From Chytriomyces cf. hyalinus JEL632 (lineage: Eukaryota; Chytridiomycota; Chytridiomycetes; Chytridiales; Chytriomycetaceae), in the NCBI GenBank assembly GCA_025435555.1, contig JAIWWG010000149.1, forward strand, positions 1 to 54,191: a stretch of DNA of 54,191 nt, in the 5' to 3' direction. The notes beneath the pieces are model-generated. The model saw only the letters and a list, made by a program, of their open reading frames with translations, did no database searches and had not been told where the DNA came from. Position numbers and translations under genes: made by a program. This document shows, one piece after another, positions 14,660 to 46,806 of this stretch (within the stretch, counting starts at the first letter, position 1; each line of letters starts with the position of its first letter).

Positions 14660-15964
14660 CTACAATTCCAATCCATCAAACATAAAGTCGCACTTCAATC
14701 CCGCATTATCCCTCAAATCGCACTGGATGATACAGCGCATGCTGCGCAGTTCCACCGGTACAATTCCCACCAACCGATTCGAACTCAACAGCAGTCCCCA
14801 CAAATTCTCCAATCGCCCAATCTCAACGGGTATCTCCCCGCTCAACTGATTCTCGCGTAAATGCAAATGCCGCAGCTGAAGCAGTTGCCCAATCTCTGGA
14901 GGGATGCGCCCGGTGAATGCGTTTCGATCCGCGAGAAGGTACTTGAGATCTGAGAGGAGACTTATCGTTGCTGGAATGGAGCCCGAAAGGTTGTTGCAAG
15001 TCAAATTGAGTCCATTCAACTTTCTGAGCGCGTGAATTTCATGAGGAATTGTGCCAGAGAGAGCATTGTCATGGATATCGAGTTTTTGCAGGTTGATGAG
15101 GGAGCAGAGATCGAGTGGAATGGGTCCCGCCAAATGATTCACATACAGATGCAATTCTTGGAGTTGTTTCAGTTGTCCCAATTGCGCGGGTATATTTCCA
15201 GTAAACTCATTGTTTCCGAGATTCAAGTAAATCAGATTGGACAACATGGAAAGCCCGGTTGGGATGGGCCCGCTGAAGCGATTTTCATTAACGGACAACT
15301 CAACAAGCGATCTCAAGTCTCCAATGGAAGATGGAAGCGGGCCATCCAGCATGTTGTCATCCAAAACAAGAGTCTCCAAACTTGTCAGGTTCGTCAACTC
15401 GACTGGAAACGGGCCGTACAGAAAACAGGAGCACAACTGCAGCGACGTTAATTGTTTCAGAATGCCAAACGATGGTGTTAATCGTGAAGGAAACTGCAGT
15501 TGCTGACTCCAACAAATGCGCAACAAGTGTCGCAGATAAAAGTGCGCATACACGTCCTGGAATGTATGTGGCCAGCCCAGAAACTCAATATCAGTTTTTG
15601 ATGGGAAATACGATCGCGTTTCTGAGAGTGTCGGTTTTGGACAGTGCCTGGATAAGCACAGACGCGCGAAGTGGCTCGACTCATTCGGTGCTGGGGACAG
15701 CGCTGCATTAACATGTCGTGATAGTAATCGATAGAATGCAATGGAGGCAGGATCCATCCAGCTGAAGATCTCCTGGATAAGTTCTGTGGGAAGGGTGGAA
15801 ATACTCCATCGCTTGATAGGATGAAGCTTCAAGTGGCGGATGGATGGATGCTGTTCGAGCAGCGACTCGATGCTCAAACGCAGCGTCCTTTGACTGGTCT
15901 CAATTGCGCCAAGTTCGCGTTCGCTGTGGTGGGAGTTCGGCAATCTGGACTGCGAAGATTCCAT
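14660..15964 (-). CDS. F-box protein with plant-type leucine-rich repeats
   Basis: Single-exon gene of 434 residues. Residues ~54-90 (ISTLPTELIQEIFSWMDP) are F-box-like. From about 175 to the end there are roughly ten LRRs of the 24-residue plant type with the consensus LxxLxxLxLxxNxLxGxIPxxL; examples are LVLDDNMLDGPLPSSIG and LNLGNNEFTGNIPAQLG. There is no signal peptide or transmembrane segment, so the product is probably intracellular, with a possible role as substrate adaptor of an SCF ubiquitin ligase (inferred). It is the best-preserved member of an LRR family with broken or shorter copies at 30.3, 32.4, 39.7, 44.7, 47.2 and 49.7 kb. Confidence 0.88.
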   Translation of the reverse strand: MESSQSRLPNSHHSERELGAIETSQRTLRLSIESLLEQHPSIRHLKLHPIKRWSISTLPTELIQEIFSWMDPASIAFYRLLSRHVNAALSPAPNESSHFARLCLSRHCPKPTLSETRSYFPSKTDIEFLGWPHTFQDVYAHFYLRHLLRICWSQQLQFPSRLTPSFGILKQLTSLQLCSCFLYGPFPVELTNLTSLETLVLDDNMLDGPLPSSIGDLRSLVELSVNENRFSGPIPTGLSMLSNLIYLNLGNNEFTGNIPAQLGQLKQLQELHLYVNHLAGPIPLDLCSLINLQKLDIHDNALSGTIPHEIHALRKLNGLNLTCNNLSGSIPATISLLSDLKYLLADRNAFTGRIPPEIGQLLQLRHLHLRENQLSGEIPVEIGRLENLWGLLLSSNRLVGIVPVELRSMRCIIQCDLRDNAGLKCDFMFDGLEL

Positions 15965-18807: not shown

Positions 18808-19779
18808 TCATGCAATGCAAACACTCTTCAAAGTTTCGTTCGGACTGATACACACCACATCCGTGTCCGCCTGCGGAGAATCTTTCCGATTCAACGCTTC
18901 CCTCGACCGAATCCGCCGCAACTCTGCAGACCCCAACACATTCTTCAACTTTTCATCGGCCGAATTTCGTCTCCGCACACGCTCCCGGTACAAATTAACC
19001 TTTAAAGCAGTGAGTACAAGAGAAACGGCACTCAACATTATGTAAGCGACAAGCCTTTGCCAGTCTTGGACCCACCCCGCAAACGCGAGTACACTGCCAG
19101 CGGCACCGAGAAACACGAAACTTCCAACGAGGCCGTATTGCGCCACGATGGTAAGGGAATCATCTGAGATGGAGCTCCCCGATTCAGATTGAACGTTGTT
19201 GTGGAGAAACACGACAAACGTGAAGAGGAAGATGATGTCCAAGAAAAACGTGAAGACGGCTAGGGAAGCGCCGTACCATCTTGAGATCATGAAGCTTAAC
19301 GCGATTTGATTCGGGTCCGATACACATACTGACACTATCCGGGATGTAATGGGCGGCAGGAACTGGAGTGGTAGGGTTTTGACGACCCACCAGAGTCCTG
19401 TCGCGAGTCCTGGCGGGAGAGTCCGTTCAAAAATTCCCTTTGCACGATCGTAGCTGTAGTTTATATATCCAAGCTCTGCAGCATTGAATCCGATGCCTTT
19501 GGCCATGACGAGAACTCCGTCGACAGCTTTTCCCAAGTCCACATCATAGTCGAGCGCCAAATGAGCGGCAGTTTCAGCGGAAAACATGATGATAAGAGAG
19601 ATCATCATTGTCAAGATGCTGAGATTGAAGGAGGTGGCGATGGCGGGTCGACCTCTGCGAGACAGCGTAAGGGCTGACTTCTCCTGCAGACAGGTGATGA
19701 AGACGATGAAGCTTGCGAGGTGGACGACTGTCAGCACGGTCATGACTATCGAGACGCAGGTGTAGATTGAGATGGACAT
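18808..19779 (-). CDS. 7TM family copy A (unknown, receptor-like layout)
   Basis: Single-exon gene of 323 residues. Seven hydrophobic segments: a short outside N-terminus and TM1 (~6-30), TM2 (~48-72), TM3 (~85-108), TM4 (~127-150), TM5 (~165-192), TM6 (~207-232), TM7 (~238-262), then a basic cytosolic tail of about 60 residues. Loop charges favour N-out/C-in. Family hallmarks present: YINYSYDRAKGIFERTLPP after TM3, SRWYGAS in TM5, ALKVNLYRERVRRR after TM7 and LGSAELRRIRSREALN in the tail. It groups with copy B (both have FSAETAAHL or a close variant and a shorter tail) against the longer copies D-J. The 36-bp minisatellite begins about 130 bp upstream of its start, in the promoter position. 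Confidence 0.85.
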   Translation of the reverse strand: MSISIYTCVSIVMTVLTVVHLASFIVFITCLQEKSALTLSRRGRPAIATSFNLSILTMMISLIIMFSAETAAHLALDYDVDLGKAVDGVLVMAKGIGFNAAELGYINYSYDRAKGIFERTLPPGLATGLWWVVKTLPLQFLPPITSRIVSVCVSDPNQIALSFMISRWYGASLAVFTFFLDIIFLFTFVVFLHNNVQSESGSSISDDSLTIVAQYGLVGSFVFLGAAGSVLAFAGWVQDWQRLVAYIMLSAVSLVLTALKVNLYRERVRRRNSADEKLKNVLGSAELRRIRSREALNRKDSPQADTDVVCISPNETLKSVCIA

Positions 19780-19911
19780 CAGCGCATTATTATTTTGTCA
19801 GGCAGGCTGTGCCAAGTTGAGTTCGCGTAGAAAATATTTATTACGTAATTTTGAAAACAGTTTTAAAAATAAAGTCAAGTCAGTCCGATTTTATTCAGGC
19901 AGGATAAAAAG

Positions 19912-21896
19912 AAAAAGAGTTAATAAATAAGTTGACCGTGCGCCAATAAAAAGAGTTAATAAATAAGTTGACCGTGCGCCAATAAAAAGAGTTAATAAAT
20001 AAGTTGACCGTGCGCCAATAAAAAGAGTTAATAAATAAGTTGACCGTGCGCCAATAAAAGAGTAAGAGTTACCATAAAAGAGTAATAAGTTGACCGTGCG
20101 CCAATAAAAAGAGTTAATAAATAAGTTGACCGTGCGCCAATAAAAAGAGTTAATAAATAAGTTGACCGTGCGCCAATAAAAAGAGTTAATAAATAAGTTG
20201 ACCGTGCGCCAATAAAAAGAGTTAATAAATAAGTTGACCGTGCGCCAATAAAAAGAGTTAATAAATAAGTTGACCGTGCGCCAATAAAAAGAGTTAATAA
20301 ATAAGTTGACCGTGCGCCAATAAAAAGAGTTAATAAATAAGTTGACCGTGCGCCAATAAAAAGAGTTAATAAATAAGTTGACCGTGCGCCAATAAAAAGA
20401 GTTAATAAATAAGTTGACCGTGCGCCAATAAAAAGAGTTAATAAATAAGTTGACCGTGCGCCAATAAAAAGAGTTAATAAATAAGTTGACCGTGCGCCAA
20501 TAAAAAGAGTTAATAAATAAGTTGACCGTGCGCCAATAAAAAGAGTTAATAAATAAGTTGACCGTGCGCCAATAAAAAGAGTTAATAAATAAGTTGACCG
20601 TGCGCCAATAAAAAGAGTTAATAAATAAGTTGACCGTGCGCCAATAAAAAGAGTTAATAAATAAGTTGACCGTGCGCCAATAAAAAGAGTTATAAATAAG
20701 TTGACCGTGCGCCAATAAAAAGAGTTAATAAATAAGTTGACCGTGCGCCAATAAAAGAGTTAATAAATAAGTTGACCGTGCGCCAATAAAAAGAGTTAAT
20801 AAATAAGTTGACCGTGCGCCAATAAAAAGAGTTAATAAATAAGTTGACCGTGCGCCAATAAAAAGTAAGTTTACGCTAAAATAAGTTGACCGTGCGCCAA
20901 TAAAAAGCGGTTAATAAATAAGTTGACCGTGCGCCAATAAAAAGAGTTAATAAATAAGTTGACCGGCGCCAATAAAAAGAGTTAATAAATAAGTTGACCG
21001 TGCGCCAATAAAAGAGTTAATAATAAGTTGACCGTGCGCCAATAAAAGAGTTAATAATAAGTTGACCGTGCGCCAATAAAAGAGTTAATAAATAAGTTGA
21101 CCGTGCGCCAATAAAAGAGTTAATAAATAAGTGACCGTGCGCCAATAAAAAGGAGTTAATAAATAAGTTGACCGTGCGCAATAAAAAGAGTTAATAAATA
21201 AGTTGACCGTGCGCCAATAAAAAGAGTTAATAAATAAGTTGACCGTGCGCCAATAAAAAGAGTTAATAAATAAGTTGACCGTGCGCCAATAAAAAGAGTT
21301 AATAAATAAGTTGACCGTGCGCCAATAAAAAGAGTTAATAAATAAGTTGACCGTGCGCCAATAAAAAGAGTTAATAAATAAGTTGACCGTGCGCCAATAA
21401 AAAGAGTTAATAAATAAGTTGACCGTGCGCCAATAAAAAGAGTTAATAAATAAGTTGACCGTGCGCCAATAAAAAGAGTTAATAAATAAGTTGACCGTGC
21501 GCCAATAAAAAGAGTTAATAAATAAGTTGACCGTGCGCCAATAAAAAGAGTTAATAAATAAGTTGACCGTGCGCCAATAAAAAGAGTTAATAAATAAGTT
21601 GACCGTGCGCCAATAAAAAGAGTTAATAAATAAGTTGACCGTGCGCCAATAAAAAGAGTTAATAAATAAGTTGACCGTGCGCCAATAAAAAGAGTTAATA
21701 AATAAGTTGACCGTGCGCCAATAAAAAGAGTTAATAAATAAGTTGACCGTGCGCCAATAAAAAGAGTTAATAAATAAGTTGACCGTGCGCCAATAAAAAG
21801 AGTTAATAAATAAGTTGACCGTGCGCCAATAAAAGAGTTAATAAATAAGTTGACCGTGCGCCAATAAAAAGAGTTAATAAATAAGTTGACCGTGCG
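19912..21896. repeat. 36-bp minisatellite, about 55 copies
   Basis: Head-to-tail units built from gttaataaataagttgacc then gtgcgccaataaaaaga (36 bp). Long stretches (about 20100-20680 and 21180-21830) are essentially perfect, while the centre (about 20690-21180), a short stretch near 20060-20100 and the right edge carry one-base indels and shortened units. The unit is a multiple of three and lacks stops in two minus-strand frames, which creates long repetitive open frames that are not genes. There are no spacers, so it is not a CRISPR array. It separates 7TM copies A and B and ends about 110 bp beyond the stop of B. Confidence 0.98.
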
Positions 21897-22007
21897 TTCG
21901 TGTTTCTGTTTCTGCGTCTGTTTCTGCGCCAGCCAGGAGAACGAACACATAAATGGAATGTATTCACCCATTGAACATTCCTCATGTATGTTTCCTCTGC
22001 TCAAAAA

Positions 22008-22979
22008 TCACACCACCTCCAAACATTTCAAAGTGTCGTTAACACCCACAAACACTGCATCTGAATACACCTTTGGAGACTCATACCGATTCAGCGTTTC
22101 CCTCGACCGAATCCGCCTTAGCTCTGCAGAACCCAGCACGTTTTTCAACCTTGCATCTGCAGTGGATCGCCTGCGCTCACGGTCCCGGTGCAAATGAACC
22201 TTTAACGCTGTGAGAACCACAGAAACAACGCTGAGCATGATATAAGCAAGCAACCTCAGCCACTCCTTAACCCACCCCGCAAACGCGAGAAGACTCCCCG
22301 CAGTGGCGAGAAATACAAAACTTCCAACAGCGCCGTACTGCGCCACCACCGTCATGGACTCATCTGCGATAGAACTCCCTAATTCACACTGAATATTCGA
22401 GTGCAGAAACACGACAAATGTGACGAGAAAGATCATGTCCAAGAAAAAGGTGAAAATAGCCACCGCAGCGCCGTACCATCTCGAGATCATGAAGCTTAAT
22501 GCGATTTGATTTGGATCTGATACACACACGGATACTGCACGGGCTGTGACAGGTGGTAGGAATTGAAGCGGCAAGGTTTTGACGACCCAGCAGAGTCCTG
22601 TCGCGAGTCCTGGAGGGAGAGTCCGATCAAAAATTCCTTTCGCGCGATCGTAGCTGTAGTTTATGTATCCAATTTCGGCCATGTCGAATCCGATTACTCT
22701 GGCCATGACAAGAATGCCATCGATAATTTTTCCAAAGCGGACATTGAAGTCGAGCGACAAATGAGCTGCAGTTTCAGCGCAGAACATGATGATGAGCGAG
22801 ATCAGCATGGTAAAGATGCTGAGGTTGAAGGAAGTGGCGATAGTGTGGCGGCCTCTGCGCGACAGTGTGACGGTTGGCTTCTCCGACAGACATGTGACGA
22901 AGACGATGAAGCTTGCGAGGTGGGCGACTGTCAGCACGGTCACTACGATCGACACACTGGTGTAAGTTGAGATGGGCAT
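22008..22979 (-). CDS. 7TM family copy B (unknown, receptor-like layout)
   Basis: Single-exon gene of 323 residues, same length as A and its closest relative; both keep the FVVFLH end of TM5, PPGLATGL before TM4 and SVCVSDPNQIALSFMISRW between TM4 and TM5. Hallmarks YINYSYDRAKGIFDRTLPP, SRWYGAA and LGSAELRRIRSRETLN are intact. Differences from A cluster in TM3, TM6 and the last 20 residues (NDTLKCLEVV end). No signal peptide apart from TM1. The minisatellite lies immediately downstream of its stop and may be included in its 3' untranslated region. Confidence 0.85.
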   Translation of the reverse strand: MPISTYTSVSIVVTVLTVAHLASFIVFVTCLSEKPTVTLSRRGRHTIATSFNLSIFTMLISLIIMFCAETAAHLSLDFNVRFGKIIDGILVMARVIGFDMAEIGYINYSYDRAKGIFDRTLPPGLATGLCWVVKTLPLQFLPPVTARAVSVCVSDPNQIALSFMISRWYGAAVAIFTFFLDMIFLVTFVVFLHSNIQCELGSSIADESMTVVAQYGAVGSFVFLATAGSLLAFAGWVKEWLRLLAYIMLSVVSVVLTALKVHLHRDRERRRSTADARLKNVLGSAELRRIRSRETLNRYESPKVYSDAVFVGVNDTLKCLEVV

Positions 22980-23128
22980 CCGCGCATTGTTTCATCCGCC
23001 AACTTCGCGCGAAATCTTGTGTAAGCAGTTTGGAATTGTTTTGAAATATCGCCAACAAAACGAATTGAAAAATTTCAAATAAAAAAAAACATTTGACCAG
23101 CTTTCTTCAATATGACGGACTTGCGTGC

Positions 23129-24122
23129 CTATTCTTGTACCATCACCAGTTCCACATCTTTGGTCACCTCCAAATTTCTCAACGTCCCGCTTGCGTCCCA
23201 CTCCAAATCAGGCCTTGGAGACCTTCTTCCGCGAGGAACCGCGTCTCTGGTCCGTATACACCTGAACTCCGCCGATCCCAACGCATCCTTCAACCTAGCT
23301 TCAGCATCAATCTGTCTACGAACTCTCTCTCTCTCTCTCCATAGCTTCCATTTCAAACCCGTCAAAATCACCCAGATCACGCTCAGTTGACAAAATGACA
23401 CCATCCTTAGCACCGGGCGAAGCCACTCGGCGTACGCAAACAACGCGCCAGCTGCACTGAGAAATGCAATACTACCAGCAGTTCCGTGCCGAGCCACAAT
23501 GAGCAACGACTCATCAGGAGCCGAGTTTGGCCGCTCAGAAAGACTGACTATTTGCGCGCAGAAGCAGTAAAAACGACACCAAAAACACGATATCGCACCG
23601 CCGCCCCTGCGGTTGCTGCTCCATACCATCGTGAGACGGAGAAGATCAAAACCGCTTCGTCTGAACTTTGCACAAAGAACGAAGCCACACGGACTAAAAT
23701 CGCGGGAAAGAACAGTAGCGGTACATACATGACCACGTAGTAGTACCACTGCTATCGCCGGTAACAGGGTCTGCTCAAAAATGCCTTGTGCGCGAGAGTA
23801 GCTGCAGTTGATGTATCCGATTTCGGTGGTAAGGAACCAGAGGGTGCGCCCAGTAACAAGGACTCGTTCTGTGAGACACTCCGTCGTAGTCGATTGCAAC
23901 GTATAAAATAGTCTCGCATACGTAAATCAGAAGAATTGAGGCAATCATGCCAGTCAAGCTGATGTTGAAGGTCGTCATGAGTCCGGGCCGTCGGTTTCCG
24001 GAAAGCGTACTTGTTCCTATTTCCTTGGGGGAGATGAGGAAAACAATGAAGCCAGTGAGGTGGACTGCAGTGGCGATTGTCATGGCGATGCAGGCACTGC
24101 TGTAGAGTGCGAGTGCCACCAT
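23129..24122 (-). pseudogene. 7TM family copy C, frameshifted
   Basis: Starts normally (MVALALYSSACIAMTIATAV, HLTGFIVFL) and keeps TM1-TM2, then leaves frame near 23880. Homology resumes as RTLWFLTTEIGYINCSYSRA, leaves again near 23740 and is picked up in another frame as PLLFFPAILVRVASFFVQ and SVSRWYGAAT, then returns to finish with LIVARHGTAGSIAFLSAAG, VILTGLKWKLWRE and LGSAEFRCIRTRD. At least three frame changes show that it is dead. The DR motif has become YSRAQGIFE, as in D and E. A long GT/CA repeat lies just upstream of the start. Confidence 0.88.
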
Positions 24123-24154
24123 CTATGAGCGAGTGCTTATTTGAGAGAGGATTT

Positions 24155-24162
24155 GTGTGTGT

Positions 24163-24213
<51 letters not shown>

Positions 24214-24216
24214 TGT
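24155..24216. repeat. GT dinucleotide microsatellite
   Basis: About 60 bp of (GT)n with two interruptions, 33-94 bp upstream of the start of pseudogene C, between it and the shared upstream block. Confidence 0.97.
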
Positions 24217-24262
24217 GTGTGCGGGGGGCTGTAGAAGGAGTCCGTGGGTGAGGAGCGGGATT

Positions 24263-24312
24263 TTCATGAAAATCCTTGTGACAGTTTTTTCGGCGCCAAA
24301 AAATATCTGGGC
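24263..24312 (-). promoter_or_regulatory. Shared upstream block, type 1 (copy C)
   Basis: Plus-strand blocks catgaaaatcc, ttttttcggcgcc and gggcgaaa, matching in order the block upstream of D, E and I. The CA repeat now separates it from the start of C. Confidence 0.6.
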
Positions 24313-24356
24313 GAAAGAAGTTCTTCATCTATCCCAAATCTTTCCTATTTACTTCA

Positions 24357-25358
24357 TTATTCGATGATTTCCATTGCCACATCCTTGGTCGGCTCCAAAC
24401 TTCCCATCGTCCCGCTCGCATCTGCAAAACCCCACTCCAAACCAAGCTTCGGAGACGTTCCGCCGCGAGGGGTCACGTCTCGGGTCCGAATACACCGCAA
24501 CTGCGCTGATCCTAACGCGCCTTTCAACCTAGCTTCAGCACTAATCTGTCTACGAATCTGCTCCCCATGCAGCCTCCATTTCAATCCAGTCAGAATCACC
24601 GAGATCACGCTGAACTGACAAAACGCCGCCAACCTTAGCAGTGGAGTAACCGATAAACAGTAATAAACCAATGTCCCAGCCGCACTGAGAAACAGAAAAC
24701 TGCCAGCAGCTCCATACCGAGCTACAATGAGCAACGAATCGTCACAAGTTGAGGTTACCTTTTCGTGCAGTTTGTTTGCCCGCAGAAAAAGAACAAAAGA
24801 ACCCAAAAATACAATATCCAGAAGCAACGACACAACAGTATTTGCTGCTCCGTACCACAGGGAAGCAGAATATATCAAAGTCGCGTCGTAATCGCTTTTG
24901 ACATAGAACGAGGCCACGCGGACCAAAACCGCCGGCAAGAACAGAAGCGGGGCGGTCTTCACCACGTAATAAAGTCCCACTGATAGCGCAGGCAACAGAG
25001 TCTGCTCAAGGATGCCTTGTGCACGAGAGTAGCTGTAGTTGATGTACCCAATTTGGGCGCACATAAAGCCGGCTATGCGAACAGTAACGATGACGCGTTC
25101 TATCACTTGCGATACTCCGCCGTAATCGATCGAAACAGATAAAATAGTCTCGCCCGAGTAGATCAGAAGAAGTGAGACGATCATGACCGTCAAGTTGACA
25201 TTGAATGTTGTCATGAGCCCGAGCCTGCGGCTTGCAGAACGCGTACTGGCTTGAGTTTCCTTGGAACAGATGAGGAAGACAGCAAAGCCGGTGAGGTGGA
25301 CTGAAGTAGCGGTGGTCATTGCGATGCAGACACTGCTGTAGATTGAGAGTGCTGACAT
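24357..25358 (-). CDS. 7TM family copy D (unknown, receptor-like layout)
   Basis: Single-exon gene of 333 residues, closest to C and E. TM1-TM7 are all present. Hallmarks vary: YINYSYSRAQGILEQTLLP replaces the YDRAKGIF form (Asp to Ser), SLWYGAANTV replaces RWYGAAT, and ILTGLKWRLHGEQIRRQ and LGSAQLRCIRTRDVTPRGG follow TM7. The loss of the Asp in the post-TM3 motif, shared with C and E, marks a subgroup. The type 1 block lies about 32-80 bp upstream of the ATG. Confidence 0.85.
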   Translation of the reverse strand: MSALSIYSSVCIAMTTATSVHLTGFAVFLICSKETQASTRSASRRLGLMTTFNVNLTVMIVSLLLIYSGETILSVSIDYGGVSQVIERVIVTVRIAGFMCAQIGYINYSYSRAQGILEQTLLPALSVGLYYVVKTAPLLFLPAVLVRVASFYVKSDYDATLIYSASLWYGAANTVVSLLLDIVFLGSFVLFLRANKLHEKVTSTCDDSLLIVARYGAAGSFLFLSAAGTLVYYCLSVTPLLRLAAFCQFSVISVILTGLKWRLHGEQIRRQISAEARLKGALGSAQLRCIRTRDVTPRGGTSPKLGLEWGFADASGTMGSLEPTKDVAMEIIE

Positions 25359-25389
25359 TTAAGCGTGGTGTGGGGTGTGTTGGGGATTG

Positions 25390-25440
25390 TCATGAAAATC
25401 CTGTGAGGTACAAATTTTCGGTACCAAGATAATGGGCAAA
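25390..25440 (-). promoter_or_regulatory. Shared upstream block, type 1 (copy D)
   Basis: Blocks catgaaaatcctgtga, attttcggtacc and gggcaaaatatg, at promoter distance from the ATG of D. Confidence 0.65.
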
Positions 25441-25488
25441 ATATGCACAGTTTTCTTCTTTGTCTATCGCAAGTCTTGAATTGTTTTA

Positions 25489-26488
25489 TCACTCTCCTAC
25501 ATCCATTTCCACATTCTCGACTGCCTCCACATTCCTCAAAGTCCCGCTCGCTTCTGCAAAATCCCACTCCAAACCAAGCCTCGGAGACCCTCCTCCACGG
25601 GGAAGCGTGTTTCTTGTCCGAATCCGCTGCAAATCGGCGGACCCTAACACGTCCTTCAGTCTCATACTGGCTATCGTTTGTTTGCGAATTCGCTCACCAC
25701 GTAGCTTCCATTTCAAACAAAATGATGCTCAACTGACAAAGCGACGCCATTCTTAGTGCCGAACTGATCCACTGGGTGTACGCAAACAAAGTCACTGTTG
25801 CGGTGAGAAACAGAAAACTGCCAGCAGTCCCATACCGAGCAACAATAAGCAACGAATCATCAGGACTGGAGGTTGCCCTTTCATTAAGGCTGTTTGCGCG
25901 CCGAAATAGCACGAAGGACACCAGAAACACAATATCCAGCAAAACCGCAACGACCGCCGTTCCGGCTCCGTACCATCGGGCGACGGAGAAGATCAGGCTC
26001 GCGTTGTCCTCGTGGACAACGAAGGACGCCATTCGGAAAAGCATCGCTGGAAGAAATAACAACGGCACGGTCTTGACCACGTAATAAAGTCCCGCTCCAA
26101 TCGCGGGTAACAGCGTTTGCTCGAATATCCCCTTTGCGCGAGAGTAGCTGTTATTGATGTACCCTATCTCAGCAGTCAGGAACCACACAGTTCTTCCAGT
26201 GACAAGGACTCTTTCCGTCATCTGCGATACTGCGCCATAGTCGCTGGCAATATATAAATAAGTTTCGCAGCCGTAGGTAAGCAGAAGCGAGGCTATCATG
26301 ATAATCAGGTTGATATTGAATGAAGACATGAACGCAGGCCGGCTTCTTCCAGAACGCCCATTTGATCGTGTTTCCTGGGAGCAGACGATGAAGATAATGA
26401 CGCCGGCGAGGTGGGTCAAAGTCGCGATTGTCACGGCGATGCAGACACAGCTGTAGGCTGAGAGGTCCTGCATATTTTGTGTTTGCAT
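25489..26488 (-). pseudogene. 7TM family copy E, broken in TM7 by a 14-bp deletion
   Basis: Reads well from MQTQNMQDLSAYSCVCIAV (or the inner Met at 26473) through TM6 and into TM7 (CQLSII), then a gap removes about 14 bp compared with C and D where SVISVILTGLKWKL should be, ending early at EMEATW. The missing tail is intact in another frame (KWKLRGERIRKQTI, LGSADLQRIRTRNTLPRGG). Everything else is well kept, so the break is recent, or a sequence error. The post-TM3 motif is YINNSYSRAKGIFEQTLLP. Confidence 0.8.
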
Positions 26489-26542
26489 GGGTGAGTGAGT
26501 GAGAAGGAGTGAGTATGTGAGGGGTATGTGTACAGGGGGATT

Positions 26543-26602
26543 GTCACGAAAATCCTTTGACTAATAATTTTTCGGCGCCGGGAATATTTGCGCCAAAATA
26601 TG
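26543..26602 (-). promoter_or_regulatory. Shared upstream block, type 1 (copy E)
   Basis: Blocks cacgaaaatcctttga, tttttcggcgccggg and gcgccaaaatatg, at promoter distance from the ATG of E; the fullest version of the block. Confidence 0.65.
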
Positions 26603-26644
26603 ACCAGTTTTCTTTATACAAAACCGGCACTTGCTTTTTTAGTT

Positions 26645-27643
26645 TCATTGCTCGTTTATTTCCTCTTCCTTGACGGCCAGCAAGTTGCTGAGAGTTGCGT
26701 GCATATCGACAAGGACACACTCGGACCCTTGGTTCGGGGACCTACTTCCGCGTGGCAGTGTGTCCCTGGTTCGAATCCTACGCAACTCATCATCTCCCAA
26801 AACACTTTTCAACTTGGCATTCGCATCAGCCTGACTTTTGATCCTCTCCTTTTGCAATGTCCGTTTCAAGCACGTCAGAATCACTGAAATCACACTCAAT
26901 AAGATATACGACAACATCCGTAGCGACACTTCAACCCACTCTGCGTAGGCGAGCGAGATCCCTGCCATGACGAGGTACACGGAACTGCCAACGGCACCGT
27001 ATCGAGCAATGATAACCACAGAATTGTCAGCGGTGGAATGGGCCATATCTAAGGGACTGTTTGCCCGCAGGAACAGCGCAAACGATACCAAAAAGACTAC
27101 GTCCAACAGGACGGTGATAATCGCTGTTGCGGCGCCGTACCACCGTGAAATTGTGAAGATGGCAGTGGTTTCCTCGTCGCTCGATAGAAACATCGACGCA
27201 ATGCGGAAGAGAATCGCAGGCAAGAACAGCAGCGGCACGGTCTTCACGAACCAATGGAAGCCAGTTGCAAAGGAGGGCGGAAGAGTTAGCTCGAATATTC
27301 CCTTTGCACGATCATAGCTGTAATTGATGTACGCGATTTCTGTGCCAATGAACCCGACTGTTCGTCCAGTCAGGAGTATGTTCATCACCATGTCCGTGTC
27401 TGTTCCACTGTCTTTTGCGACGTAGATGCCGGTTTCGGAGCTGTACATCAGCATTAAACAAACGATCATGACTATCAAGTTGATGTTGAAAGATGTCGAG
27501 ATCTGAGACCGGCGCTTGCCCGTCTGCGTACAGCAGTGCTTCTCCTGGCAGTAGCTGAGGTACACACCGAAGCCAATAAGGTGAGCCAGCGTGGCGACTG
27601 TCATGAAGATGCAGGCCAGAGTGTAGCTGGAAAGGGCCGTCAT
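26645..27643 (-). CDS. 7TM family copy F (unknown, receptor-like layout)
   Basis: Single-exon gene of 332 residues from MTALSSYTLACIFMTVATL. Seven membrane segments; hallmarks YINYSYDRAKGIFELTLPP, SRWYGAATAI, VILTCLKRTLQKERIKSQ and LGDDELRRIRTRDTLPRG. Groups with G and J in the first cytosolic loop, which is Cys- and basic-rich (CQEKHCCTQTGKRR). The frame stays open upstream of the ATG, but the sequence there matches the shared upstream block of G and J, so the Met at 27643 is preferred. Confidence 0.86.
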   Translation of the reverse strand: MTALSSYTLACIFMTVATLAHLIGFGVYLSYCQEKHCCTQTGKRRSQISTSFNINLIVMIVCLMLMYSSETGIYVAKDSGTDTDMVMNILLTGRTVGFIGTEIAYINYSYDRAKGIFELTLPPSFATGFHWFVKTVPLLFLPAILFRIASMFLSSDEETTAIFTISRWYGAATAIITVLLDVVFLVSFALFLRANSPLDMAHSTADNSVVIIARYGAVGSSVYLVMAGISLAYAEWVEVSLRMLSYILLSVISVILTCLKRTLQKERIKSQADANAKLKSVLGDDELRRIRTRDTLPRGSRSPNQGSECVLVDMHATLSNLLAVKEEEINEQ

Positions 27644-27649
27644 CAAAAA

Positions 27650-27735
27650 GTACGCGTTTGAATGTGTTTTTGGAAATCTCATTACGTAATTTATGGGTTT
27701 GTTTACTTGGCCTTCCAAGAAAGTCGCCGAGCGAA
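27650..27735 (-). promoter_or_regulatory. Shared upstream block, type 2 (copy F)
   Basis: Contains aaaaagtacgcgt next to the start, then tggaaatct, cgtaattta and aagtcgccg, in the order found upstream of G and, more diverged, J. Confidence 0.55.
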
Positions 27736-27904
27736 TGCGAACGGATACTGCGGAATTGAGAGGAGCTGTATTCATGTTTCTTGTGAAAGGCAGTGTGAAG
27801 TCGCGTCCAGAATATCAAAAAGCCAAAAGAGACAAAGCGTTTCCAGCACGGTCAGGCTCACACTTGCAAATTCCGAGAATATGATTTCTTATTAATACCG
27901 CAAA

Positions 27905-28900
27905 TTATTCTGCTATTTCCAGTTCCTTCATGGCCTCCAAATTGCTGAGAGTGCCGTTTATATCCACAACAAGGACACTCTCCGACCCACGTTTCGGCGA
28001 TCCAACATGTGGCAGCACGTCCCGAGATCGAATCCTGTGTAGCTCCACAGACCCCAAAACATTCTTCAACCTCGCGTCGGCAGCAGCCTGACTGCGGATA
28101 CACTCCTTTTGCAGCTTCCATTTCAAACCAGTCAGAATCATTGAAATCACACTCAGCTGAATAAACCCCAACATCCGCAGAGACGCTTCAATCCACTCTG
28201 CATACGCGAGCATGGCCCCCGCCACGCCGATATACATGGAACCTGCAACGGCCCCGTATTGCGCGATGATGACCATAGAATTGTCAGCTACAGAATGAAC
28301 CATGTCCATAGGCCTGTTTGCCTGCAGAAACAACACAAACGCTGCGAGAAATACAATGTCCAGCAGGACAGTCACAATGGATGTTGAAGCGCCGTACCAT
28401 CGCGCCATTGAGAAAATAGAAGCAGCCTCTTCACTGCTCGAGGCAAACAGCGGCGCAATGCGGAAAAGAACCGTTGGAAGAAACAGCAGCGGCACAGCCT
28501 TCACAACCCAATAAAATCCTCCTGAGAACGCGGGTGGCAGCGTTTGTTCGAATATCCCTTTTGCGCGATCATAGCTGTAGTTGATGTACGCAATTTCAGT
28601 GGCAATGAAGCCGATAGTTCTTCCAGTCACGAGGATATTCTCCACCATCTCTGTATTTGTTCCGCAGTCTCTTGCAACGTAAACACTGGTTTCACAACTG
28701 TAAATCAGCAACAGAAACGCAATCATGGCTATCAAGTTGATGTTGAAAGATGTCGAGAAGTGCGACCGGCGTTTACTCATCTGAGCACAGCGGTGCCTGT
28801 CCTGGTAGTAGCTTAGGTAGAAAACGAAGCCGACAAGGTGGGCTAGCGTGACGACAGTCATGAAAATGCAGACACTGCTGTAGATAGAAAGGGCCGCCAT
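27905..28900 (-). CDS. 7TM family copy G (unknown, receptor-like layout)
   Basis: Single-exon gene of 331 residues from MAALSIYSSVCIFMTVVTL. Hallmarks YINYSYDRAKGIFEQTLPP, ARWYGASTSI, MILTGLKWKLQKECIRSQ and LGSVELHRIRSRDVLPH. Its closest relative is J: both share SSSE in the TM4-TM5 loop, the same length, the same tail (VGSPKRGSESVLVV) and the same upstream block. G and J are therefore the two products of a segmental duplication that also carried H/K and LRR sequence. Confidence 0.87.
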   Translation of the reverse strand: MAALSIYSSVCIFMTVVTLAHLVGFVFYLSYYQDRHRCAQMSKRRSHFSTSFNINLIAMIAFLLLIYSCETSVYVARDCGTNTEMVENILVTGRTIGFIATEIAYINYSYDRAKGIFEQTLPPAFSGGFYWVVKAVPLLFLPTVLFRIAPLFASSSEEAASIFSMARWYGASTSIVTVLLDIVFLAAFVLFLQANRPMDMVHSVADNSMVIIAQYGAVAGSMYIGVAGAMLAYAEWIEASLRMLGFIQLSVISMILTGLKWKLQKECIRSQAAADARLKNVLGSVELHRIRSRDVLPHVGSPKRGSESVLVVDINGTLSNLEAMKELEIAE

Positions 28901-29030
28901 CAAAAAGTACGCGTCAAGTCAAGATTTTGGAGATCCGTTTTTGTCACTGGAAATCTCGTCGGGTGACTTAAATAGTTCTGTATATTTCTTTGGTTCATAA
29001 AAGTCGCCGGGTACATCGGCGCGGCTTCAT
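28901..29030 (-). promoter_or_regulatory. Shared upstream block, type 2 (copy G)
   Basis: aaaaagtacgcgt, caagattttgg, gtcactggaaatct and ataaaagtcgccg occur in the same order as upstream of J and partly of F. Confidence 0.6.
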
Positions 29031-29078
29031 TTCAGTGATCTTGTTTGTACTGAATGTTATAAACGGCAAAATGCAAAA

Positions 29079-29079
29079 C

Positions 29080-29114
<35 letters not shown>

Positions 29115-29121
29115 TAGAGAG
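29079..29121. repeat. GA microsatellite
   Basis: (GA)n with interruptions between the stop of H and the upstream block of G. A shorter counterpart at about 32073-32101 sits in the same place beside remnant K, supporting the block duplication. Confidence 0.95.
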
Positions 29122-29149
29122 ACTGTGAGAGCGAAACCGGCTTTCCCAT

Positions 29150-30151
29150 TCAGGAGTCAGTTTCCACACATAGGTCCTTGACCCCTTCCAAATTCTTGAC
29201 AGTGGTATTCGCATCCACAAATCCACTCTCCAAATTTCCCTTTGGCAACTCCACCACCGGCTCCGGAAACATTTCCCGTGACCTAATACGCCTCAACTCG
29301 GCCGACCCCAAAATACCCCTCAACCTCTCATCAGCCGCAGACTTTCTTGCAACCCTTTCACAATGCAATTGCCATTTCAAACAAGTCAGAATCACGGAAA
29401 CTGCGCTCAAAAAAATGTACGATAGCAGCCGCAGCGACGCGTTTACTTGCTCAGCGTATGCGGATAACGTCCCTGCGGCGCCGAGGAAGATGAAACTGCC
29501 GGCTGCGCCGTAGCGAGCGATGATTAGCATGGAGTTGTCAGAAACAGGGTGGACAGTTTCCGAGGGACTGTTTGCGCGTAGAAACAGCACAAACGACACC
29601 AAAAACACAGTGTCCAGCAACACCGTCACAATCGCCGTCGCAGCGCCATACCATCGCGATATTGAAAATATAGAAGCAGCTTCGTTATTTCTCGACACGA
29701 AAACAAACGCAGCACGGAAAAGAACCGTTGGAAGAAACAAGAGTGGCACAGTTTTCACGGCCCAATGAAGCCCCTTTCCAAAGACGGGTGTGAGCGTAGT
29801 TTCAAAAATGCTCTTTGCACGATCGTAGCTGTAATTGATGTACCCGATTTCCGCAGCAATGAAACCGACGGTTCTTCCTGTTATGAGAACGTCTTCTAGG
29901 GTTTCAGTGTCTGCGTTGTGATCGCTCGCGATGCCAATGCCAGTTTCGCACGAGTAGATCAGCAGCAGAGACACAAGGATGACTGCAATGTTCATGTTAA
30001 AGGGCGTGGCAAAAGCGGGCAGGCGCCTTTGTTTTGAGCGCTCCGGGTGTTCCTGGAACCAGATGATGAAAACAATGAATCCAGCTAGGTGGAGGAAAGT
30101 GAACGCAGTCATGAAGATGCAGACGGAGCTGTAACTTGAAAGCGCCGGCAT
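29150..30151 (-). CDS. 7TM family copy H (unknown, receptor-like layout)
   Basis: Single-exon gene of 333 residues. TM1 8-31, TM2 52-75, TM3 86-108, TM4 128-152, TM5 164-192, TM6 205-232, TM7 238-260, tail 261-333. The loop after TM1 is basic (QEHPERSKQRR) and the loop after TM2 acidic (SDHNADTETLED), which places the N-terminus outside and the tail inside. YINYSYDRAKSIFETTL sits at the inner end of TM3 (YDR at 109-111). RWYGAAT starts TM5 and ILTCLKWQLHCERVARK ends TM7; LGSAELRRIRSREMFPEP lies in the tail. Remnant K is its internally deleted duplicate. Confidence 0.86.
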   Translation of the reverse strand: MPALSSYSSVCIFMTAFTFLHLAGFIVFIIWFQEHPERSKQRRLPAFATPFNMNIAVILVSLLLIYSCETGIGIASDHNADTETLEDVLITGRTVGFIAAEIGYINYSYDRAKSIFETTLTPVFGKGLHWAVKTVPLLFLPTVLFRAAFVFVSRNNEAASIFSISRWYGAATAIVTVLLDTVFLVSFVLFLRANSPSETVHPVSDNSMLIIARYGAAGSFIFLGAAGTLSAYAEQVNASLRLLSYIFLSAVSVILTCLKWQLHCERVARKSAADERLRGILGSAELRRIRSREMFPEPVVELPKGNLESGFVDANTTVKNLEGVKDLCVETDS

Positions 30152-30295
30152 GGATTTTCACGGTCAAGAAAACAAAGTTGAATTGTCTTGTTTTGCGTAA
30201 ATCTCAAACTGAATTGAGAAAATATTTACGTCAAGGTTTTAATTTTTCTTCAAACAAGTGTCGGGAGGTAACTAAAGCATGCCTGGCCAGTTGAC
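30152..30295 (-). promoter_or_regulatory. Upstream block of copy H, also present at remnant K
   Basis: gaaaatatttacgt, caagtgtcgggaggtaacta and aagcatgcctggccagt match 32265-32375 almost base for base in the same order. Confidence 0.6.
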
Positions 30296-30480
30296 TGGGT
30301 CCAAATTTCCAAGCGCTTTCGGAATCTGATTCCTGACCATGAGGCGATGTGCGCAGGAGATAGATTCAACCCGCGTCAACAACTGTGTCGCAACTACATG
30401 CGCAAAGTTGCTCGACGCTGAGAACATGAGCGATTCAAACTGTCACGGGGGAAGTCTGAATATTAGTTGTCTTGCAAGCG
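30296..30480 (-). pseudogene. F-box/LRR gene fragment
   Basis: Over about 170 bp this matches the middle of the intact F-box/LRR gene (about 32905-33060): aagcgctttcggaatc, gatgtgcgca, caacccgcgtcaacaactgt and gtcgcaactacatgcgcaaa. Neither the F-box nor the repeats remain. It is the left-hand counterpart of that gene in the duplicated block. Confidence 0.85.
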
Positions 30481-30539
30481 TGCTTTGAAAGCAGTGTGTG
30501 AAGTCGGGCCGAGTACTATGTACAACAAAGCCAATAGGG

Positions 30540-30790
30540 ACTTAACAGTTTTCCGCAACGGCAATACCAGTTTCACACGTATAAATTAGCAGTACCGACG
30601 CGAAAATGTCGATAATGTTGATTTTGGATCGCGTCGCGAAAACGGTTAGTTTTTGTTGGGGACTGGCCGCTCCGGGCGCTCCTGGAACAAACAATGAAGA
30701 ATGAGTTGGCTAAAGCCGCGGTGGTGGGTGGAAATATTGCTGTAACTCTAGAGTACCGGTATTTGCGTGTGAGTGCATGCATGGGTGTTT
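30540..30790 (-). pseudogene. 7TM family copy I, N-terminal remnant
   Basis: Only the first third is left. DNA matches the start of H through the first loop and TM2 (ggccgctccgggcgctcctgg and ataaattagcag) but with frame changes and no start in frame with the rest. A type 1 upstream block still precedes it. Confidence 0.75.
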
Positions 30791-30800
30791 GTGTGGGATT

Positions 30801-30858
30801 GCCATGAAAATTCTTTGATAACCACGTTTTGTTGGCGTCAAACGCGCCGGAAATATCG
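30801..30858 (-). promoter_or_regulatory. Shared upstream block, type 1 (remnant I)
   Basis: catgaaaattctttga, ttggcgtcaaacgcgccgg and gaaatatcggtgtc parallel the blocks upstream of C, D and E, though the gene behind it is dead. Confidence 0.55.
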
Positions 30859-30908
30859 GTGTCAAAGATGTACCACGTTCTTTCTCTTAATACCGGGGCT
30901 AGTTTAAA

Positions 30909-31904
30909 TCACTCGTTTATTTCCACTTCCTTGATGGCCAGCAAGCTGCTGAGAGTGCCGTTTGTATCCACAACAAGGACACTCTCCGACCCACGTTTCG
31001 GCGATCCAACATGTGGCAGCATGTCCCGAGATCGAATTCTATGCAACTCCTCAGACCCCAAAACATTCTCCAACTTGGCTTCAGCAGCAGCTTGCCTGCT
31101 GAGACACTCATTTTGCAGCTTCCATTTCAAGCCAGTCAGAATCACTGAAATCACACTAAGCTGAATAAACGCGAACAATCGAAGCGACTCTTCAAACCAC
31201 TCTGCGTACGCAAGCATTGTCCCCGCCACGACGAGATACACGGAACTTCCAACGGTGCCGTACTGCGCAATGATGACCATAGAATTGTCAGCTACAGAAT
31301 GATCCATGTCCAAGGGATTATTTGCGCGCAGAAACAGCACAAACGCAACGAGAAATACAATGTCCAGCAGGACAGTCGCAATCGCTGTTGCAGCGCCGTA
31401 CCAACGCGACATTGAGGAAATAGAAACAGCCGCTTCACTGCTCGATGCAAACAGCGGCGCAATGCGGAAAAGAACCGTAGGGAGAAACAGGAGCGGCACG
31501 GCCTTCACAACCCAATCAAAGCCAGTTGCAAAGGCGGGCAGCAGAGTTCTGTCAAATATCCCTTTTGCGCGATCATAGCTGTAGTTGATGTACGCGATTT
31601 CCGTGACAATGAAGCCGATAGTTCTTCCAGTCATGAGGATATTCTCCACCATCTCAGTGTTTGTTTCGAAGTCTCTTGCAATGTAGATACTGGTTTCACA
31701 ACTGTAAATCAGCAACAGAAACGCGATCATGATGATCAAGTTGATGTTGAACGATGTTGCGAACTGAGACCGGCGCTTGCCCGTCTGCGCACAGCAGTGC
31801 TTGTCTTGGCAGAAGGAGAGATAGACAATGAAGCCGACAAGGTGCGCCAGCGTGCCGACTGTCATGAAGATGCAGACACTGCTGTAGGTCGAAACGGCTA
31901 CCAT
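30909..31904 (-). CDS. 7TM family copy J (unknown, receptor-like layout)
   Basis: Single-exon gene of 331 residues from MVAVSTYSSVCIFMTVGTL. Hallmarks YINYSYDRAKGIFDRTLLP, SRWYGAATAI, VILTGLKWKLQNECLSRQ and LGSEELHRIRSRDMLPH. Nearly the same tail as G (VGSPKRGSESVLVVD). Differences from G concentrate in the TM3-TM4 region and TM6. The start was chosen because the preceding in-frame codon is TTG and the ATG position matches G and F. Confidence 0.87.
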   Translation of the reverse strand: MVAVSTYSSVCIFMTVGTLAHLVGFIVYLSFCQDKHCCAQTGKRRSQFATSFNINLIIMIAFLLLIYSCETSIYIARDFETNTEMVENILMTGRTIGFIVTEIAYINYSYDRAKGIFDRTLLPAFATGFDWVVKAVPLLFLPTVLFRIAPLFASSSEAAVSISSMSRWYGAATAIATVLLDIVFLVAFVLFLRANNPLDMDHSVADNSMVIIAQYGTVGSSVYLVVAGTMLAYAEWFEESLRLFAFIQLSVISVILTGLKWKLQNECLSRQAAAEAKLENVLGSEELHRIRSRDMLPHVGSPKRGSESVLVVDTNGTLSSLLAIKEVEINE

Positions 31905-32030
31905 CAAAAGTACGATATGAGTTCAAGATTTTGGGGATCAGTTTTGTCACTGGAAATCTTTTCGCGTAATTTAAACGGTTACTTTTATTTTTGCTTCATG
32001 AACTTCGGCGGGAACATTGATGTAGTCTCA
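31905..32030 (-). promoter_or_regulatory. Shared upstream block, type 2 (copy J)
   Basis: aaaagtacg next to the ATG, then tcaagattttgg, gtcactggaaatct and cttcggcggga, aligned with the region upstream of G. Confidence 0.6.
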
Positions 32031-32121
32031 TTTGAGTGATTTTGTACTGGATGATTTGAACGTCAAAAGCCAAGAGAAAGCGAGAGAGCGAGAGAGAGAG
32101 AAACAGATTTCCGAATTCACG

Positions 32122-32262
32122 AACCCATCTGCACACACGCGTCCTTGACCTCCAAATTCTTACCCCTCAACCTCGCATCCGCCGTAGACTTTCTGAAAAC
32201 TCTTTCGCAAAGCAATTGCCATTTCAAACACATCAGAATCACGGAAACTGCGCTCAAAAAAA
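32122..32262 (-). pseudogene. 7TM family copy K, deletion remnant of an H-like gene
   Basis: About 140 bp matching the 3' part of H with one internal gap, up to gaaactgcgctcaaaaaaat, where it jumps straight to the sequence that lies at the start codon of H (gattttcacgg) and continues into the H-type upstream block. Roughly 0.7 kb of coding sequence, TM1 to TM6, is therefore missing. Confidence 0.85.
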
Positions 32263-32449
32263 TTCGATTTTCACGGCCACGGATTTAAGAAAATATTTAC
32301 GTAAAAGTTTTAAATTTTTTTCCAAACAAGCGTCGGAAGGTAACTAAAGCATGCCTGGCCAGTGACTGGGATCGACTTGATGCCTCCAGTTTGGTTCTAT
32401 GACATCCTCTTCGTGACACCCATCAGATAATCCTCCTCGACACAAAAAG
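32263..32449. other. H-type upstream block left beside remnant K
   Basis: Matches 30140-30300: gaaaatatttacgta, caagcgtcggaaggtaacta, aagcatgcctggccagtgac. The rest up to the LRR stop is unassigned. Confidence 0.6.
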
Positions 32450-33370
32450 TCAAAAACTCCGCACAATCAACCGCGTCAACCCCATCAACACAAACGCAAT
32501 CTCACTACAATCCAACAAATTCGAATGCAAATACAAATACTCCAACTTGAAACACTGCCCAATTTCCACCGGAACTTTTCCGCTAAACTGATTCCCCGCC
32601 AAATTCAACTCTCGCAACGTTGCTTGGAGTTCTAAAAGCGCGTACGGTACGGGTCCATTCATTTGGTTCCCTGAAAGATCCAATACTTCTAGAGTTTTGA
32701 TTTCGCAGATTTGTGTGGGGAAACTTCCTGTCAGTTTGTTGCCCATCAGATTCAAGATTCGCAAGTTTTGCAAGGTTCGAAATTCGGAAGGAAGTTGACC
32801 GCATAAACAATTCCGCGCAAGGATGAGGGATTCGAGGTTATGCAAGTTTCCCAGTTCTGCTGGAATTTCTCCAAATAGCCTGCAACTGCTCAAATCCAAA
32901 TGTTTTAGAAATCTTAGGCATCCAAGCGCTTTCGGGATCCGACTTCGGACCATGAGTCGATGTGCGCATGAGATGGATTCAACCCGCGTCAACAACTGTG
33001 TCGCAACTACATGCGCAAAGTTGTTTGACGCGGTGAACAAGAGTGATTCAAACTCGTCAGGCCATGTGAGAGTTGTTTTTTGCACTCGTTTTTGTTTGGG
33101 GCAAATGAATCGGGACAAGTTTAACTGCGCGAAATGTTTGCTGGAGAGGATGTTGTTGAGGGTTCGTGATAGTCTTTGGAGGTGATTTGAGTCTCTAGGA
33201 TGGATCCAGCTGCAGATTTGCTCGATAATTTCGCAGGGGAAGTCGTTGATGGAGACTGGGGTATCTGTGGGGAAGAAGAAGTGTCAGAGTTCAGATCCGC
33301 GACGGGCCATTCCCGTAGCAAACATACAGATGGGTCTTCGAATCGACGTGGTATCTTGGATGGCTGCCAT
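32450..33370 (-). CDS. F-box/LRR protein, short form
   Basis: Two exons (33328-33370, 32450-33264) join to 285 residues with a 63-nt GTATGT-CACAG intron. The first exon encodes MAAIQDTTSIRRPI. The F-box follows, with VSINDFPCEIIEQICSWIHP and RLSRTLNNILSSKHFAQLNL. Then about five plant-type LRRs: LSSCRLFGEIPAELGNLHN, LARNCLCGQLPSEFRTLQ, LMGNKLTGSFPTQI, LSGNQMNGPVPYAL and LAGNQFSGKVPVEIGQC. No signal peptide. Possible SCF adaptor (inferred). Shorter than the 434-residue relative at 14660. Part of its middle is duplicated as a fragment at 30296-30480. Confidence 0.82.
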
Positions 33371-44732: not shown

Positions 44733-46806
44733 TCACCAGCAATTACCGTCTTCGGATGGTCGGGATTCTGTTTCTGTCTCCCAGCGAAACGCAATCACCG
44801 GCCTGTCCGTCGACTGCTTTCGAAAATGTTCCGGTAAATCCCCTTCAAAACGATTTCCACTCAGATCCAGCCGCTTCAAATCCCTGCAACCACCAAGACT
44901 ATTGGGAATCAACCCGCTCAACTGATTGTTGCTCAAATCGAGCGTCTTGATTTGTTTCATGCTTTCGAACGAATCACAGTGAAGAGTACCGCAAGCAGTT
45001 GTTGCTCAAATCAGAGCGTTCGATGGATTGATAACGCAGCATGGAAGCAGGAAGTGGACCCGATAACTGATTGTGGCTCAAGTTCAAACTTTTCAGATAT
45101 TTTAGGTCTCCCGTGTCAGTTGGCAGCTGACCAGAAAAACGATTGTGGTCCAGGTGCAGGCTTTGAACATACTGCCATTCTCTAAATTTCGGTAGCGGAC
45201 CCGACATTCGATTATGATTCAGTTTTAGCGTGTTCAAACCCCGCGGCAAAAAAGCTTTCTGGCACGGAACCAGTTAACTGATTATGGCTGAGATCCAACG
45301 TGTTCAGCATGGTCAAGGCTCCAACATCTCGCTGCAATGAGCCGACAAAGCTGTTGTTGTTCAATCTAAGCGTGGAGATATTGGAAAGCATGAAAATTCC
45401 GGATGGAATCTCTCCAGTGAGTTAGTTGTGACTGAGATCCAATGTCCGCAAATGAAGAAGGCTTCGCACAGAGTCTGGAATTTCACCACACAATTGGTTG
45501 TGACTCAGGTTGAGCACTATGAGAAAAGTCAAACGCCCAATTTCCATCGGCAACCGACCGCTGAGCTTGTTGTATTGCAGCGACAGATCCGTGAGGCTCA
45601 CAAGCGAGGTGATTGAATCGGGAATTGCGCAGCATAATTCGTTTCTGTCAAGATACAGGAGTTCCAATCTGGATAGCCCCCCAATCTCAGTTGGGATTGG
45701 CCCTTGGAGGTTATTTCCTTGCAAGTTGAGGTACTCGAGGTTTGTAAGCGACATGACGTAGTCAGGAAGTCTCCATGAGAGACGGTTTTGAGAAAGGTCC
45801 AGCTCTGACATTAACAATGAAACTTCATCTTTTCCGCCGGCTCGTTCGAGCTGATTCCATTTCAGTGACTGCGAAACAAGGATGCCGATGGATGTCGTGA
45901 AGTGATTCCAGTGATGCGGTCGGAATCAAGAGGAACAATTGAGGAAACTGGTGGGCTCTTCGAGTTTCGATCAAATTTCGCGCCCTGAAGCAATGGCAGC
46001 CGGAATATCGATTCTGGAATAGCTCCAGAAAATCGATTCTGCTCGCAATGCAGCGTCTTCAGTTGTATGCATCGACCAATGGATTCTGGTATTGGTCCTT
46101 CGAAATGGTTGCTGCTCAGCGACAAACTCTGTAGCTTGGTCATTCTGCCAAACACATCTGGCAGCTTGCCTGAAAGCTCGTTATTTTGCAGGCGTAAGTC
46201 CACCAAGTTGACCAAGTTCCCAAAACTCGCAGGAATGCAGCCACTGAGCCTGGTATTAGACATATCCAGTACTTCCAGGTTAACGAGGTTTCCTAAACTG
46301 TCAGGCATCGTGCCTTCAAGATTCGTGTCACTAAAGTTCAAATTCTTCAAGGTGACGAGATTGCCCAACTCCGACGGGATTGGACCGGTCACGGTCTGGC
46401 CCATCAAATTTGCGCCTTGAGTACAGACGAGCCCCCAAAATCTAAGGATCAATTGTTTCAGGCAACCGACCGTGTTTGGCAGTGGACCTGTCAGATGGAA
46501 AGTTTTCATGGGGCCGTCGACTTCCGAAGGAAACCATTCCAAGATAGAAGTCGCATTGCTTGATTTTCTCGGGTTGATTGGGACGACTTTGAGAGTCGTC
46601 AAGGGGTACTGATGGAATACTTCGTATTCAAATGCTCGAGCCGTTTCTGTTAGGGCTCGTCGCAAGAAGTCCTTCCCAAATGACGCAGGTGTAACGAAAC
46701 AAAAGATATCCTCAGGACTGTCTGCGTTGGATTCGCGAAAATGTCCCATGTGAACCAGGCCAATCAGACGCGCTTGGAGTTTGTTGGGAATCTGCAGCAT
46801 ATTCAT
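44733..46806 (-). pseudogene. F-box/LRR copy without F-box, multiply broken
   Basis: Reads in four open pieces. 45862-46806 gives HLTGPLPNTVGCLKQL and a run of LRRs (DTNLEGTMPDSLGNLVNL, NNELSGKLPDVFGRMTKL); 45422-45817, 44974-45249 and 44733-44960 continue with LRRs separated by stops and frame changes. It parallels the copy at 47191-49546 along most of its length (FCFVTPASFGKD, GRMTKLQSLSL), but the F-box region is gone. Dead copy. Confidence 0.85.

Follow-up and report, generated by a model that had tools for sequence, protein, structure and literature searches.

A tandem array of seven-transmembrane protein genes in Chytriomyces cf. hyalinus JEL632, part of a large and probably G-protein-coupled receptor-like family

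The stretch of DNA analysed here, which we call the window, comprises 54,191 nucleotides of the zoosporic fungus Chytriomyces cf. hyalinus JEL632 (contig JAIWWG010000149.1, hereafter C56) and carries a tandem array of related genes, each predicted to encode a protein with seven transmembrane (TM) segments. Eleven copies of this one family, seven intact and four broken, lie on the minus strand between positions 18808 and 32263; a sequence-only reading had proposed this same-strand content over about 13.5 kb, and open reading frames together with tblastn confirm it. The intact genes are c1 (18808..19779, an open frame of 323 aa, with a near-identical annotated protein, P0003, at 94%), c2 (22008..22979, 323 aa), c4 (24357..25358, 333 aa), c6 (26645..27643, 332 aa, or a 376-aa frame with the upstream ATG at 27775), c7 (27905..28900, 331 aa), c8 (29150..30151, 333 aa) and c9 (30909..31904, 331 aa), the copy whose structure was modelled. 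The broken copies were found by tblastn of eight copies (the c5 frame among them) against the window at an E threshold of 0.01: c3 (23135..24122) is divided between two frames, c5 (25492..26488) retains a 264-aa frame with its C-terminal part in another frame, and two fragments resemble c8, one at residues 39-77 (30545..30667, 51% identity, E 3e-7) and one at residues 246-279 (32162..32263, 85% identity, E 1e-12).

Measured against c1 or c9, the copies show 42-80% identity, with a mean column identity of 58%, and on these sequence comparisons their similarity is far beyond chance. The basic tail noticed earlier is evident as a C-terminal motif, LGsaELrrIRsRd, common with variations to the intact copies. 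Annotated proteins from a near-identical array elsewhere in the assembly, 323, 323, 331, 333, 333 and 376 aa long, agree with the proposal that most of these genes are uninterrupted and encode about 323-333 aa; in the annotation of Chytriomyces cf. hyalinus JEL632 the array proteins carry the label hypothetical protein.

Seven hydrophobic segments had been counted in each protein, and the predicted structure of c9 (model confidence, pLDDT, 85) indeed contains seven long helices, at residues 6-37, 51-78, 84-120, 123-152, 156-194, 207-236 and 239-282. Comparison of this model with known folds, including the comparison with G-protein-coupled receptors (GPCRs) that the sequence-only reading had recommended, indicates a predicted arrangement of the GPCR type, with modest Foldseek E-values. 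In 51 of 57 related rows of our alignment, loops 1, 3 and 5 are richer in lysine and arginine than loops 2, 4 and 6 (the six exceptions being P0014, P0023, L016, L017, L027 and P0019), a bias which, as a prediction rather than a mapping, would place the N-terminus outside the cell and the basic tail inside. When the seven intact copies are compared, similarity is higher in the inner half of the helices than in the outer half (0.63 vs 0.50; permutation p 0.006, with residues treated as independent); the difference is strongest in TM3, TM4 and TM7, and runs in the opposite direction in TM1 and TM2. Similarity in the loops is nearly equal on the two sides (inside 0.52, outside 0.48), with the C-terminal tail at 0.49. 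Three residues in c9 numbering, Arg112, Asp181 and Gly216, are invariant in all 57 aligned rows, and Lys260, Phe188, Ile212 and Leu256 each occur in more than 90% by weight of the same alignment. Arg112 lies 28 residues past the start of helix 3, a position which we take to match, by the usual numbering, that expected of the DRY arginine; the local motif is DRA in six of the seven intact copies and SRA in c4.

The earlier statement that these proteins could be placed in no known family holds against the collections searched. Pfam searches of family members gave no match reaching a curated cut-off, and, of the 57 rows compared with Pfam to E 0.1, the best match over the seven-TM part was to PalH (E 0.0019; 17.8 of 34.1 bits); searches of NCBIfam and of PDB sequences gave nothing significant. 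Stray weak matches in the family searches were to EpsF (E 0.036) and VPH2 (E 0.061), and the Pfam LRR (leucine-rich repeat) matches of one row come from P0014, a gene model in which LRR and seven-TM parts are joined. In the accessible parts of the literature searched, outside which subscription papers mostly lie, the family is not described. Against a viral origin, viral contigs searched with c9 yielded no relative.

Beyond the array identified at the outset, the family extends through the genome. Six-frame searches of the assembly (37.8 Mb, 242 contigs) with seven family members as queries gave 120 merged places on 51 contigs, of which 106, the window counted, lie outside the two contigs, C168 and C69, that carry further copies of the array; open frames of at least 280 aa are present at 82 of these 106. 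The list of places was compiled by hand from the genome searches, only new places being added, and some entries required judgement: the frame was set to 200 for C168:21632, C111:881832 and C5:39618, where there are several internal stops, and to 325 for C194:62588; two pieces were joined at each of C170:261215 and C235:43405; C64 and C146 were kept at 372 despite a stop; and six places (C232, C17, C183, C23, C190:253185 and C192:168803) have E-values of 1e-3 to 6e-5 only. C56 counts eight places because a merging distance of 150 bases ran c4 and c5 together, and distinct genes number fewer than 106, since the near-identical sets C76/C205/C199/C134, C229/C192 and C222/C203 were counted separately. 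Apart from the three array copies, neighbours within 5 kb of one another form fifteen groups; thirteen are confined to a single strand, and in some cases a group may represent fragments of one gene. The relationship among branches is supported by more than BLAST, and profile-profile alignment also joins them: the array profile matches that of ten dispersed members with Prob 99.65 (E 4.5e-25, 279 columns), and that of nine members of a branch described below, with WSC-like N-terminal parts, with Prob 96.85 (E 2e-10). Among the protein-search matches listed (at least 16, at least 20 and 9), the organisms, where named, are only C. hyalinus or C. cf. hyalinus; the search requires shared 5-residue words, and its coverage of other chytrid proteomes was unchecked.

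A second array, near-identical to that of the window, occurs on C168, and a third, with two genes fewer, on C69; we infer that the window is a second copy of the C168 locus in the same strain. As an observation, the three near-identical copies are candidate alleles, duplicates or assembly haplotigs. On C69 a single gene, 98% identical to c9, replaces c7, c8 and c9, so that c8 has no counterpart seen there; alignment of the window to C69 skips from 29106 to 30918, and its two pieces overlap on C69, a pattern as expected from unequal exchange. The broken copies c3 and c5 are broken on both other contigs, while the counterpart of c2 is broken on C69. Divergence between the contigs is a mosaic: between C56 and C168, c2, c6, c7, c8 and c9 differ by 1-4 changes each and c4 by 15, synonymous divergence (dS) in c1 is 0.115, and for c6 on C69 it reaches 0.37.

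As judged from codon changes, the array paralogs show purifying selection. The ratio of nonsynonymous to synonymous divergence (dN/dS) is 0.12-0.36 over the 21 intact pairs, values which are rough because dS exceeds 1 in 17 of them; among the remaining four, whose dS is lower, the ratio is 0.21-0.36. Between contigs, where counts are small, the ratio rises to as much as 0.71 (c4), and the changes in c2 (4), c7 (3) and c8 (1) are nonsynonymous only. A role in cell-surface variation, one of two suggested previously, thus finds little support in these sequences: the paralog ratios speak against it, and on its side stand only the between-contig changes in c2, c7 and c8, few in number and all nonsynonymous. 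A FastTree tree built from 57 sequences over 282 columns unites the 23 array-type rows in a single clade (support 0.997), within which c1, c2, c4, c6 and c8 each group with a protein belonging to another strain of C. hyalinus (branching order only, node support unread); these five copies therefore predate the strains. P0010 is placed beside the c4 group, and c7 and c9, closer to each other than to two adjoining proteins of strain HDU81, look the youngest on this tree. The idea of ongoing birth and death is accordingly upheld in part: C69 has two genes fewer and a c2 broken there only, but five of the copies are older than the divergence of strains.

Taken in combination, the fold and topology predicted for these proteins, the organisation of their genes, the selection on them and the signalling setting are best read as those of a GPCR-like receptor family. 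To this reading, together with that of the array as a locally duplicated clade within a large, unnamed Chytriomyces family of some tens of such proteins, we assign a probability of roughly 0.6. Each protein would cross the membrane seven times in a GPCR-like fold with its N-terminus outside; a ligand would bind from outside, at the part of the helices in which the copies are most divergent, and move the helices, so that the intracellular face formed by R112 (inner end of TM3), D181 (TM5), G216 (inner part of TM6) and K260 (inner end of TM7) could, around R112, engage one of many G-alpha proteins. This working face, the coupling to G proteins, the sensing of ligands and any role in zoospores or thallus are put forward as proposals. 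The likeness to the GPCR fold class (class D Ste2 and classes A, T and C) comprises the seven predicted helices, the predicted fold, the charge bias that predicts an outer N-terminus, the Arg conserved where TM3 reaches the inner side and the greater conservation of the inner helix halves; the family differs in having no sequence similarity at cut-off and neither DRY nor NPxxY as such.

The organisation of the locus is chemoreceptor-like, as had been suggested for this zoosporic fungus: a tandem array on one strand, graded divergence and pseudogenes recall the chemosensory receptors of animals, as do differences in copy number, seen here between near-identical contigs. The resemblance has bounds, in that no sequence relation was found and five array copies predate the strains. 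A chemosensory role is inferred, and the array proteins may be among the sensors for finding the way or food. The detection of food and hosts by chytrid zoospores is called poorly understood in the accessible part of one source (PMC12115818), and neither "GPCR" nor "receptor" occurs, by term search, in the main text of an atlas of chytrid development (PMC8887899).

One branch of the family is WSC-like. Seventeen rows form a clade with support 1.0 (FastTree), most of them with a Cys-rich N-terminal part, for which modelling gives strands and a pair of short helices (pLDDT 41-77). The WSC domain (PF01822) matches this part below cut-off, best in L036 (E 0.0064; 17.1 of 27.8 bits) and more weakly in L035 (E 0.53), and Pfam gave no WSC match for L034, P0019 or P0022. 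We count as WSC-like seven-TM proteins L022, L027-L032, L034-L036 and L039, on contigs C173, C184, C177, C14, C1, C39 and C186. In this subgroup the ectodomain, lying ahead of the seven-TM part, may bind polysaccharide. Like the WSC-domain sensors of the Wsc1 type, its members have a Cys-rich domain at the N-terminus, here a sub-threshold WSC match; unlike them they have seven helices rather than one, and the copies in the window have no such domain. The combination was not found described in the accessible portions of the literature on the WSC domain, seven-transmembrane receptors and fungi.

As to the signalling setting, and counting haplotype copies, the genome has 34 G-alpha matches above the Pfam cut-off that cover profile position 200; the usual number in fungi is about three. 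In such a genome the tandem-expanded family, which escapes Pfam, supplies a definite set of candidate receptors. Of 56 class C (7tm_3) matches, 52 exceed the cut-off, exon pieces and haplotype copies unmerged, and there are 20 RGS matches, 14 of which fall within 9 kb (C9:44344-53662). Animal-like GPCR classes have been reported in chytrids (Krishnan et al. 2012, PMC3251606, seen in part). In the accessible text of Liu et al. 2025 (PMC12842992), which recognises 17 fungal classes, what is said of chytrids concerns glutamate-type homologs; the present family resembles those classes in its seven TM segments and, like the Pth11-like receptors, in lineage-specific expansion, whereas the novel candidates presented there are DUF6534 proteins of Agaricomycotina. 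A survey of choanoflagellates reports six new GPCR families, and the word "chytrid" was not found in the part of that paper available (PMC12716839). Our results suggest that censuses of fungal GPCRs which rely on known profiles can overlook large sets specific to one lineage. More tentatively, and with rather more doubt than belief, we raise the possibility that an undescribed GPCR class supplies the main chemoreceptors of Chytriomyces, with the WSC-like branch feeling polysaccharide surfaces and the whole wired to unusually many G-alphas.

The alternative that survives best, though we consider it unlikely, is a lineage-specific seven-TM family that shares the helix arrangement and has some other task, such as transport, lipid handling or membrane organisation. 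The modest Foldseek E-values and the failure to match any GPCR sequence family are compatible with it, and the basic tail and the conserved D181 and K260 could serve otherwise; but no Pfam transporter or enzyme family, the kind of match that would have told against receptors from the start, was found at cut-off, and the N-out bias, the variability of the outer helix halves, the WSC-like ectodomains and the tandem expansion better suit receptors. Descent from a known GPCR class of this genome, chiefly class C, is improbable: its abundance makes it an obvious candidate, but comparison of profiles with six 7tm_3 domains from the genome gave no support (Prob 0.4, 0.3 and 3.1), where the same tool gives 96.85 and 99.65 for the family's own branches. 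Membership of the insect gustatory-receptor-like (GRL) superfamily of ligand-gated channels, which likewise have seven TM segments and include candidates from two Spizellomyces chytrids, is a still poorer prospect, since in the accessible account their N-terminus is intracellular (PMC7746228) and the charge bias here predicts the opposite in 51 of the 57 rows. Neither GRL proteins, microbial rhodopsins nor transporters appear among the 50 fold matches listed for c9, a result which by itself excludes nothing. Least probable of all are photoreceptors or pumps akin to microbial rhodopsins, in which the retinal lysine sits in mid TM7, whereas c9 TM7 (243-263) has lysines only at 260 and 262, at its inner end.

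Several further features were noted. The RGS matches at C9:44344-53662 constitute a tandem array of their own, and several of the G-alpha matches, very many for a fungus, lie close together on C220, C100, C161, C171, C44 and C1. Between c1 and c2 the window has a 36-bp minisatellite (19912..21896; 4.2 and 50.5 copies, about 2 kb), not present in the C168 and C69 stretches compared at the same locus. The array is flanked on both sides by LRR genes (14660-15964, 32450-32953, 45862-46806 and 47191-49194), three of which have Pfam LRR matches, one with an F-box, and the one at 32450-32953 being LRR-like by eye. In the annotation of strain HDU81, P0014 runs a c8-like seven-TM gene together with the LRR gene next to it, which is probably an error of the gene model.
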